This document shows positions 32,822 through 56,369 of a stretch of DNA of 64,000 nucleotides, one piece after another (within the stretch, counting starts at the first letter, position 1; each line of letters begins with the position of its first letter). The stretch covers positions 2,728,001 through 2,792,000 of the forward strand of contig NC_006177.1 in the NCBI RefSeq assembly GCF_000009905.1. The letters run 5' to 3'. The translations under genes were made by a program, and so were the position numbers. This DNA comes from Symbiobacterium thermophilum IAM 14863 (GTDB taxonomy: Bacteria; Bacillota; Sulfobacillia; Symbiobacteriales; Symbiobacteriaceae). The notes under the pieces are model-generated. The model ran no database searches, was not told where the DNA came from, and saw only the letters and a list, made by a program, of their open reading frames with translations.

Positions 32822-33433
32822 TCAGCCCGAGCCCCCGGCAGCGAACCACAGGTCGCGCATCTCCGGGCAGGAGTGCAGCAGCTCCTCCAGCCGCCCGCAC
32901 CCCACGACGCGCCCCTCGCGCAGGACGATGATGCGGTGCGCCTGCCGCAGCACCGCGGGCCGATGCGACACGGCCACGCAGGCGGCGCCCCGGGCCAGCA
33001 ACCGCCGCCACAGCAACTGCTCCGTCTCCACATCCAGGGCGCTGGAGATGTCGTCGAACACCAACAGCTCCGGCTCGCGCACCAGCGCCCGGGCCACCGC
33101 CGTGCGCTGGATCTGCCCGCCGGAGAGCCGCACGCCCCGTGTGCCGACAACCGTCTCCAGCCCGTGCGGGAACGACTGGACATCCCGCTCCAAGGCCGCA
33201 TCGCGGATGGCCCGGCGGAGCAGGTCCTCGGCACAGGGCAGACCGAGGCAGATGTTCTCGCGGAGGGTCCCCGACAGCAGCACCGGCCCCTGCGGCACGT
33301 AGGCCGCCCGAGGGGGCGCCAGAAACTCGCCGGGGCGGGCAATCGGGCGGCCGTTCCAGTACCACGCGCCCGCCACCCTACGGTGACGGGACAAGCAAGA
33401 GCCCCGCCCATGAACATGGGCTGGGCTCTCCAC
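32822..33433 (-). pseudogene. Truncated ABC transporter ATP-binding domain
   Basis: Carries the C-terminal two thirds of an exporter-type ABC domain: Q-loop AAYVPQGPVLLSGTLRENI, signature VRLSGGQIQRTAVARAL, Walker B LLVFDDISSALD, and switch His in VAVSHRP. Walker A, its upstream strand, and the whole membrane domain are missing. Family similarity begins near 33370; the first 20 codons look unrelated. A broken remnant, consistent with the patchy surroundings. Confidence 0.8.
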
Positions 33434-33497: not shown

Positions 33498-33722
33498 TCA
33501 GGCCCGATCGTCACCGGTGCCGGAGGTGCTCCCCCCGCCTTGCCTCGGTGCTGGAGTAAAGAGCGCGTCGAGCTCCTCCTGGTTGTACCTCGGATCGGCT
33601 ACGCCCGGCAGATAGTACGGGGTGATCCGCCCTTCGCGAACCAGCCGGTAAAAGGTTGATCGTGAGACCTGCAAGTGCTTGATCGCCTGAGCACCCGTCA
33701 ACCATGTGGGCAGAATCACCAC
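33498..33722 (-). CDS. Excisionase/MerR-like small HTH protein
   Basis: 74 aa. TWLTGAQAIKHLQVSRSTFYRL then VREGRITPYYLPG is the helix_turn_helix_17 pattern (first helix, recognition helix, wing). Such proteins act as excisionases or small regulators. A GAGGAGG site overlaps the first GTG, so the exact start is uncertain. It is transcribed divergently from the TPR gene and may control it. Confidence 0.75.
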   Translation of the reverse strand: MVILPTWLTGAQAIKHLQVSRSTFYRLVREGRITPYYLPGVADPRYNQEELDALFTPAPRQGGGSTSGTGDDRA

Positions 33723-33787: not shown

Positions 33788-33816
33788 TTGACACCGAGGA
33801 GGTGTTGTTGTATTCT
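33788..33816 (+). promoter_or_regulatory. SigA promoter of the TPR/peptide unit
   Basis: TTGACA (33788-33793) and TATTCT (33811-33816) with a 17-nt spacer, 50 nt ahead of the TPR start. The AT-rich patch here stands out from the GC-rich neighbourhood. Confidence 0.85.
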
Positions 33817-33865
33817 GTATTTCACACAAAATACTTAAGCGTACACACCGGCACACAAAGGGACG

Positions 33866-34726
33866 ATGCCGGCAGAGTCTGAAAAGGGGGTGAGGACGTT
33901 GCCGCAAGACGCCAGGATTCTCGGCACCCTGTCGGTCCAACTCGCCGCAGAGGGTCGCTGGCAAGACGCCCTGCATACTGCTCACGCCTGTCTTCGCCTG
34001 GCTGAGCCCGGCAGCGTCCTCTACCTCTGGGCGCTTCACATGCTGGCATGTACGTACGTGGATGCGGGGCTGCCGCAGCGGGCCCGGCCTTACGCTCAAG
34101 CCTACCTGCGCCAGGCGGCCGGCAACCCGCAACTGGCGTCCTACACGCCCTTTGTCGTCCGGGCGATGGGCCATATCGCCTACCAGGAGCACCGCTTCCT
34201 GAGTGCGTTCCGCTGGTACAAGAAGGCGCACGCGCTCTTCTGCCGTCAGGGAGACCACGTTCAGGCCGCGGTCACCAGCCACAACATGGCCTGGGCCCTG
34301 ACACGGGCAGGGCGCCCCCACAGGGCACGGGAAGTCCTGGCGCCTCGGCACGCTTTCCCCGCAGAGCTGGCGTACCTGTTCGATGGCGCCATGGCCGCTA
34401 TTCTGGCCGCAGAGGGCCGGCTGAGCGATACCATCCAGCGCGGCCATGAAGCGCTGTCTGCCGCCGGCCGCCGCGCGCATGACCTCGTAGACGCTGCAGA
34501 GGTCGCCCTTTTCCTGGCGCGCGCCTACTGGCGCCTCCGGGAGCATGGGGCCGCCTCGGCTTGGATAAGCCGCGCCGCAGAGTTTGCAGCCCTCCAGGGG
34601 TGGAGGTTTGTCGACGTCCTCCACCTGAATGAACGGGCGGGGGGAGGTGAAGTCCCTCATGCGGCGTCTCCTCGTGGCAGCGCTAATCTGCATCACCGTG
34701 GCTGCTTCACTACTGGCATCGCCTAG
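33866..34726 (+). CDS. TPR-repeat protein, putative peptide-sensing regulator
   Basis: 286 aa, soluble, all-helical. TPR-like pairs run through the chain: LSVQLAAEGRWQDALHTAHA, LHMLACTYVDAGLPQRARPY, GHIAYQEHRFLSAFRWYKKA, SHNMAWALTRAGRPHRAREV, AAILAAEGRLSDTIQRGHEA. No HTH is visible, as in Rap proteins. The 3' end is overlapped in another frame by a small exported-peptide gene, the gene order of rap-phr pairs. Starts near ATG 33866 or the later GTG 33890 are both possible. Confidence 0.75.
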   Translation: MPAESEKGVRTLPQDARILGTLSVQLAAEGRWQDALHTAHACLRLAEPGSVLYLWALHMLACTYVDAGLPQRARPYAQAYLRQAAGNPQLASYTPFVVRAMGHIAYQEHRFLSAFRWYKKAHALFCRQGDHVQAAVTSHNMAWALTRAGRPHRAREVLAPRHAFPAELAYLFDGAMAAILAAEGRLSDTIQRGHEALSAAGRRAHDLVDAAEVALFLARAYWRLREHGAASAWISRAAEFAALQGWRFVDVLHLNERAGGGEVPHAASPRGSANLHHRGCFTTGIA

Positions 34727-34793
34727 CCAGGCGAGTGCCTGCAATGGCGGGAACGGCAACGGCGGACCCCCTCCGAGCGGGTCCAGGTGCTAG
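34659..34793 (+). CDS. Small exported peptide precursor overlapping the TPR gene
   Basis: 44 aa (or 48 from GTG at 34647), behind GGGGAGG. MRRLLVAALICITVAASLLA is a clear signal peptide with an SPSQASA cleavage region, leaving a short tail CNGGNGNGGPPPSGSRC that begins and ends with Cys. It overlaps the last 68 nt of the TPR gene in a different frame. The architecture matches phr-type signal precursors: short, basic, secreted, coupled to a TPR sensor. No family match can be claimed for the mature part. Confidence 0.65.
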   Translation: MRRLLVAALICITVAASLLASPSQASACNGGNGNGGPPPSGSRC

Positions 34794-34816
34794 ATTAGCA
34801 AACCGTCCAGACGCAA

Positions 34817-34842
34817 GGCCGGGGGTCTCCACACCCCCGGCC
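34817..34842 (+). terminator. Hairpin after the peptide gene
   Basis: Perfect 10-bp stem GGCCGGGGGT / ACCCCCGGCC with a 6-nt loop, 24 nt past the peptide stop; no T-run follows. Confidence 0.55.
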
Positions 34843-34948
34843 CGGGCGGGACGGCACCACGAGGAGCCGCCCTGGCGAAGTACCCCGACTTCGCGCCCAG
34901 ATCCTGTCACGCTTCGTCGGGGCCTCCTTACGAGGGAGGTCTCAGACC

Positions 34949-35191
34949 GTGACCCAGAAAGCGTCCGAGTCCGCGGTTCAGGATAGGGATCGGGCTCTTC
35001 TCTACGTCGCCTCATGGTTCGCGGGGTTGAGCATGAGAGAGCGGATCACCGCGGCTTTGGCGATAGCGGATCGTTTCATGGCACAAGGCAACGCAGTTCT
35101 GGCCGCAAAGTGGGCTGACTGGGCCCTCGAGATGGAACGAGAGCTGGAGGAAAGCAACGGCAACGGACCCGAAGAGGCACAGGCAGAGTAA
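34949..35191 (+). CDS. Small helical protein, unknown
   Basis: 80 aa from GTG at 34949 behind GGGAGG. Acidic and helical (MRERITAALAIADRFMAQGN, AKWADWALEMERELEES). No family recognised. It may belong to the accessory TPR-peptide segment. Confidence 0.6.
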   Translation: MTQKASESAVQDRDRALLYVASWFAGLSMRERITAALAIADRFMAQGNAVLAAKWADWALEMERELEESNGNGPEEAQAE

Positions 35192-35343
35192 CGATGAGGG
35201 CCATTCCACACCCCTCGGCAGCAGTGCCGACTCCAGGCCGCGAAGGCGTCTCGGATACGGTGACGCAGAAGGCCCTGGGTCGCTCGACCGTCACGATGAC
35301 GGCGAACCGATCTGCGCACGCGCTGGAGAGAGAATGAGAAGAA

Positions 35344-35378
35344 GCCGCCCGGAAGGTTGATGCTTTCTTCCAGGCGGC
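35344..35378 (-). terminator. Terminator after tRNA-Val
   Basis: GCCGCC / GGCGGC outer and GGAAG / CTTCC inner stems; on the minus strand the stem is followed by TTCTTCTCATTCTC. The remainder of 35192-35475 contains no gene. Confidence 0.65.
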
Positions 35379-35475
35379 CATCGGATCGGCTCCGCAACGG
35401 GGCACGCGGCCCACGAGACGAGTCAGGGCGCAAGCCCCGGCCAGGGAGCCCGATCCCGTAAACCCTTGTGGCTGT

Positions 35476-35551
35476 TGGTGGTCGCTGAGGGACTCGAACC
35501 CCCGACCCCATGCGTGTAAAGCACGTGCTCTACCAACTGAGCTAAGCGACC
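35476..35551 (-). tRNA. tRNA-Val(TAC)
   Basis: 76 nt with encoded CCA. Acceptor GGTCGCT / AGCGACC, D-arm TAGCTCAGTTGGTAGAGCA, anticodon loop CTTTACACG (TAC), T-loop GTTCGAGTC. Confidence 0.95.
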
Positions 35552-56270: not shown

Positions 56271-56369
56271 TGGCGGGAGTATGTGGGAATCGAACCCACC
56301 AGCCGCAGGATCACTACGGCTCAAGCGGTTTTGAAGACCGTGCGGGCCACCAGGACCCGATCTACTCCC
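56271..56369 (-). tRNA. selC: tRNA-Sec(TCA)
   Basis: 99 nt including encoded CCA. Acceptor GGGAGTA / TACTCCC, long D-arm, anticodon loop CTTCAAAA with TCA, long variable arm with AGCCG / CGGCT stem, T-loop GTTCGATTC. The length and long variable arm separate it from a suppressor tRNA-Ser. It completes the Sec set with selA and selD; selB is not in the window. Confidence 0.95.

Follow-up and report, generated by a model that had tools for sequence, protein, structure and literature searches.

A TPR protein gene of Symbiobacterium thermophilum and the short secreted-peptide ORF that overlaps its 3' end probably form an RRNPP-type peptide-signaling cassette (we put the probability at about 0.77), in which a TPR-only receptor would bind an exported and re-imported peptide and act through a protein partner, with both peptide binding and processing being predictions. 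The pair is located in the window analyzed here, a 64,000-nucleotide stretch covering positions 2728001-2792000 of the 3,566,135-base single-contig genome, and the coordinates below are those of this window unless another contig or a kb position is given.

The receptor gene (33899..34726, + strand) contains a conserved start and encodes a predicted six-TPR solenoid. The protein comprises 275 aa when translated from TTG 33899, or 286 aa from ATG 33866. The TTG, which is preceded by GGGGGTGA, is more probably the start because a ribosome site and a TTG are kept at this position in the orthologue from a congener (G003) and in one paralogue. A sigma-A-like promoter, TTGACA-17-TATTCT (33788..33816, + strand), is identified by a consensus match only (10/12) and is the sole such site in the region, with 0.2 expected by chance; the alignment with the G003 orthologue begins only at 33840, that is, 3' of this site. 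Thus, the SigA promoter of a 286-aa TPR gene given in the preliminary description holds with respect to the consensus-like site but probably not with respect to the protein length. The propeptide ORF (34659..34793, + strand) starts with ATG downstream of a strong ribosome site, GGGAGGTGA, and overlaps the receptor gene by 68 nt (34659..34726, + strand), a segment that also encodes part of the unstructured C-tail of the receptor. Its 44-aa product consists of MRRLLVAALICITVAASLLASPSQASA, a predicted signal peptide (34659-34739, + strand) with a positive N-end, a 12-residue hydrophobic core and an ASA site, followed after the predicted cut by a 17-residue mature tail, CNGGNGNGGPPPSGSRC (encoded by 34740-34790, + strand). 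The overlap, the ribosome site, the signal peptide and the Cys-bounded tail are as first noted, with the proviso that a home-made rule, which is no stand-in for SignalP, was used to call all signal peptides. The GC content at the locus is lower than just upstream, as originally described, but only slightly (0.64-0.65 versus 0.69-0.73).

Being short and located partly within another gene, the small ORF could be suspected to be a chance ORF in G+C-rich DNA. When 928,000 strand-bases of the S. thermophilum genome are screened with a home-made rule for secreted ORFs (30-60 aa, ribosome site, hydrophobic core and cleavage site), 11 ORFs pass, a density of 0.0119 per kb of strand; the window ORF is among them, and most of the others resemble membrane segments. 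Hence about 0.003 such ORFs are expected per 270 nt. Of 378 gene ends that were called on the basis of third-position GC, only one carries such an ORF. The low expectation per gene end (~0.003), together with the persistence of the ORF, the Cys pair and the tail length in the orthologue and a paralogue, leaves the chance explanation with a negligible probability, and it was discarded on these background counts and conservation.

Further TPR-plus-small-ORF pairs, the search for which had been suggested in the preliminary description, were found in the same genome. At 1133 kb, the 3' end of a gene for a TPR protein 42% identical to the window receptor overlaps a small ORF that starts with GTG and ends in ACNGGSGGPPPPPTGSKC (tail also written ...MACNGGSGGPPPPPTGSKC), and the predicted tails of this pair and the window pair both consist of 17 residues, with Cys in the first and last positions. 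A third, more distant pair (2997.8-2998.9 kb) has the tail EPRSGGPSSF, predicted to be cut off after ALA. In G003, the orthologous pair lies in a syntenic neighborhood and has the tail ...SACNGGNGNGGPPPSESGC, which differs from the window tail in 2 of the 17 residues. In the G003 copy of the second pair (L005 / L061), the propeptide loses its tail at GAC, the start of an apparent IS transposase sequence. In a representative of another genus (G002), two TPR homologues overlap ORFs with the tails GPGGGGGPTPTTVFPAPTT and GPGGGSGPNPTATPTPTK, both Cys-free. The S. thermophilum genome has at least three pairs, and one relative has about eight.

The pairing would be undermined by TPR homologues lacking a small secreted ORF, and therefore such homologues were sought. 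All five close homologues have this ORF (one cut short), and so do 23 of the 30 TPR-only homologues, the window gene included, from Symbiobacteriales and one other family of the class; this set includes TPR-only ORFs of about 300 aa added by wider profile searches, and the count is of SD-plus-signal-peptide ORFs whose starts lie between -82 and +189 nt relative to the receptor stop. With the higher of two background rates, 0.0072 per 370 nt, the binomial figure is 9e-44, which is overstated because related genes are counted as independent. The seven homologues without a peptide gene resemble the peptide-less Rap proteins known in B. subtilis (PMC9765709). Separate branches are formed by related TPR-only genes that lack an accompanying peptide gene (L157, L158, L159 and L160), some of them arranged in tandem, and it is possible that these encode eavesdroppers or receptors with distant signals. 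A phylum-wide profile search retrieved mostly longer generic TPR proteins and added no members to the family from outside the order, and nothing comparable to the peptide gene accompanies XRE-TPR and other generic TPR proteins (e.g. L162-L165, L054, L056-L058). The apparent peptide ORFs of L048, L051 and L052 were rejected, given that the rule caught only the C-terminal membrane anchor of the protein itself.

Two of the propeptides contain repeated units, a feature also seen in pheromone precursors. The propeptide of G011, a member of another family of the class, contains three tandem units, GVYDPPPPRAT GVYDPPPPRST GVYDPPPPRP, and one of the G001 propeptides carries ENGTIWP and ENGSIWP (ENG[TS]IWP twice); multi-copy propeptides have been reported for Rap, NprR, PlcR and AimR (PMC9765709). 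The three-unit propeptide is encoded at L053:1157-1375 (- strand), and its ATG abuts the stop of the TPR gene. A tree built from 29 receptors shows that receptors grouped as sisters with good support have tail motifs in common (CNGG, GPGGG, EPRxxGP and SPNGTVGL), which is expected if receptor and signal are inherited together but is not proof of binding. In G001, a small secreted ORF follows each of two divergent TPR genes (L046:857-3312), and both tails contain IGGVGVKS.

Within the tail, the Cys-to-Pro core differs between the window and G003 only by silent changes at third codon positions, and the two replacements are near the C-end. This conservation of the peptide region is not attributable to the coding role alone because the spacer that follows the peptide ORF (34794-34948) is 89% identical to its G003 counterpart, above the flanking coding genes, whereas the receptor gene is 79% identical. 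Judging by these sequence comparisons, recurrence in distant pairs is a stronger argument than the peptide conservation between the window and G003. The two-Cys tail is a local variant rather than a trait of the family, which makes it less likely that function hinges on a two-Cys loop. The interpretation of the peptide as a lipoprotein was rejected, with the PROSITE lipobox pattern matching none of the three Cys-tailed peptides tested. The same pattern does match a 36-aa lipoprotein-like ORF of G003 (MNKQLCLCLVLCMGLLLSGC...; L114:5188-5298, - strand), whose end lies shortly before the orthologous TPR gene.

The receptor matches Pfam TPR_12 at 7.6e-16. In the 275-aa form this match begins near residue 5, and residues 5-17 make up the first predicted helix. 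The TPRs begin at the N-terminus; no HTH match was detected in the receptor and no three-helix bundle was seen ahead of the TPRs. The structural model (mean pLDDT 86, mostly over 90 for residues 1-237) consists of 12 TPR-type helices, corresponding to six predicted TPRs, and is disordered from residue 238, including the part encoded by the overlap. In VIA-align comparisons, RapJ-CSF (Z 19.9, rmsd 3.4, 237 aligned), NprR-NprX (19.7) and phi3T Rap (19.4) rank highest, tied with the eukaryotic LGN (19.1); in the best structural match the alignment with RapJ begins at residue 95, and the phi3T matches begin at residue 37. For the receptor of the third pair (pLDDT 95.7), LGN leads with 25.7, followed by RapI (24.2), phi3T Rap (22.8) and NprR (22.8). 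TPR solenoids resemble one another, and because LGN and other eukaryotic TPR proteins score as high as Rap, the modeled fold fits a peptide-binding TPR protein without singling out RRNPP. At the sequence level, RapF is the best natural PDB match of a profile of the relatives (1.3e-8).

In the proposed signaling scheme, a single transcript would yield the cytoplasmic TPR-only receptor and the 44-aa propeptide, translationally coupled across the overlap. The propeptide would be exported by Sec and cleaved after ASA, ahead of the Cys, by signal peptidase I, releasing the 17-residue Cys-bounded tail or shorter pieces, possibly with further trimming. The peptide would then accumulate outside the cell, be re-imported by an Opp-type permease and bind to the concave face, or groove, of the TPR solenoid, freeing or capturing a protein partner of the receptor. 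We infer the processing, import, binding and direction of the effect, with the steps after export drawn by analogy from RRNPP systems; the genome encodes about a dozen SBP_bac_5 (OppA-type) proteins. Because the receptor has no HTH, its output most likely goes via a protein partner. A broader and rather doubtful proposal is that Symbiobacteriales hold a large undescribed family of private channels with bare TPR-solenoid receptors (no HTH, no three-helix bundle), and that one Symbiobacterium branch uses an intact 17-residue macrocycle, closed by a first-to-last disulfide, as the pheromone for a cytoplasmic receptor. In known RRNPP systems the ligands are short and linear; by comparison, a 17-mer with a Cys at each end would be an unusual ligand for a TPR receptor in the cytoplasm.

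The flanks of the pair are those originally described, a divergent gene for an excisionase-like HTH protein (74 aa; 33498..33722, - strand; HTH_17 1.7e-7) and a truncated ABC gene of which only the ATPase end is left (32822-33433, - strand; Pfam and NCBIfam matches). This context raises the question of whether the pair is a quorum switch left over from a decayed integrative element at a tRNA-Val gene, with the HTH protein as the former output and the same biochemistry as in the RRNPP-type cassette. Mobile elements are known to carry quorum switches, such as RapI-PhrI in ICEBs1 and AimR-AimP in phages. The tRNA-Val gene (35476-35551) adjoins the pair, an integrase C-terminal fragment (PF00589, 3e-9) lies beside the G003 orthologue and is encoded in a stretch to which the window DNA is 79% identical, and the 1133-kb paralogue is near a tRNA-Arg gene. 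However, the tRNA-end (att) repeat was not found elsewhere in the window, the HTH gene is missing from the congener, the third pair has no tRNA gene nearby, and the window receptor has no relatives in phage and plasmid records. A decayed integrative element at this locus is possible, but we consider it unlikely that the pair is its control module. The integrase relic of G003 is an ORF fragment (L114:3387-3683, - strand) that matches the C-terminal end of the tyrosine integrase family, and its counterpart in the window (35192-35475) is broken; the tRNA-Arg gene (L113:6848-6924, - strand) lies a short distance downstream of the paralogous pair, separated from it by an unassigned 170-aa ORF. The HTH protein fails to reach the cut-off of the NCBIfam model 'excise' and has no homologue at E <= 1e-3 in any of the four other genomes of the family; it is a possible, non-conserved partner of the receptor and, given this absence, a candidate target in this genome only.

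A Gly/Pro tail bounded by Cys could also belong to a small antibacterial peptide or toxin, with the TPR protein providing immunity or regulation, and the neighboring ABC ATPase fragment has matches among peptide-exporter models. This interpretation is improbable, considering that the tails are wholly different between receptor clades, some being only 10 residues long, that the leader is of the Sec type rather than the ABC type, that adjacent modification enzymes were not seen, and that the repeated motif units better suit a signal; none of the NCBIfam bacteriocin models scored above its cut-off, although peptides this short do not permit a firm test. The ABC fragment itself is probably a gene remnant because it is an isolated exporter ATPase end without a membrane domain, closest to NHLP-type peptide exporters. 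Still less credible is a role of the TPR protein as a chaperone or export helper of the nascent propeptide, the peptide itself being structural or surface-associated. Tight translational coupling and the ability of TPRs to bind extended peptides are compatible with such a role, but the fold is close to peptide receptors, and we know of no dedicated helper that a peptide of this size would need for export by Sec. Furthermore, the tails diversify while the form of the signal peptide stays constant, and therefore the tail appears to be the specific part. A known defense system was also considered and rejected: the receptor and the peptide have no match, and the HTH protein matches MADS mad1 weakly.

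Downstream of the pair, a G+C-rich hairpin, GGCCGGGGGTCTCCACACCCCCGGCC (34817..34842, + strand), recognized by sequence and fold and without a U-tract, is a possible terminator or mRNA end. The conserved spacer folds into several G+C-rich hairpins; a known RNA was sought there and dropped, with no match near an Rfam cut-off except tRNA. The spacer could be a structured leader of the following 80-aa ORF (34949..35191, + strand), which has a clear relative in G003 only (52% identical) and no match in a Pfam search, and whose involvement in the signaling system is uncertain. Elsewhere in the window, ARAGORN predicts a selenocysteine tRNA gene (56271-56369, - strand).

Symbiobacterium-type bacteria grow poorly alone, and with named receptor and signal genes now given, peptide signaling becomes directly testable in these organisms. 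The bare TPR-solenoid receptors bear on the origins of RRNPP receptors and on signal relay without an output domain. The literature search yielded no paper that ties Symbiobacterium to TPR-peptide signaling or explains its cell-cell sensing, and the main texts of three surveys (PMC10075063, PMC9765709 and PMC12700828) do not name Symbiobacterium; the novelty, which rests on these main texts, is provisional.

RRNPP_detector, with its candidate subfamilies (Bernard et al. 2023, PMC10075063), employs five criteria, namely, a propeptide of 10-100 aa, a Sec signal, a receptor of 250-500 aa, TPRs and direct adjacency. The window pair satisfies all five, with a propeptide of 44 aa, a Sec signal according to the home-made rule, a receptor of 275 or 286 aa, TPRs detected by both TPR_12 and the model, and an overlapping gene arrangement, the peptide gene being a neighbor in 23 of the 30 homologues. 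NprR-NprX, PlcR-PapR and AimR-AimP similarly combine a small secreted peptide with a TPR receptor, and multi-copy propeptides occur among them, but their receptors, like most RRNPP receptors, carry an HTH domain, located at the N-terminus, which is lacking in the receptors of this family. The closest likeness is to Rap-Phr of Bacillus, where the receptor gene is followed by a short Sec-exported propeptide, often overlapping, and the receptor is a TPR protein without a DNA-binding domain; in fold, the window solenoid is near RapJ, RapF and phi3T Rap. The receptors of the Rap-Phr system are directed at response regulators of the Spo0F or ComA type. The Rap-Phr-like quorum system initially proposed is accordingly borne out in its gene architecture, common to Rap-Phr and RRNPP pairs, and in the recurrence of such pairs, but the receptor is not a Rap because the N-terminal three-helix bundle of Rap is missing. 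Additional differences are the six predicted TPRs of the window protein and the tails of the family, which are unlike Phr, some with two Cys. The best reading, then, is that this family works like Rap-Phr, with TPR-only receptors that are not Rap proteins.
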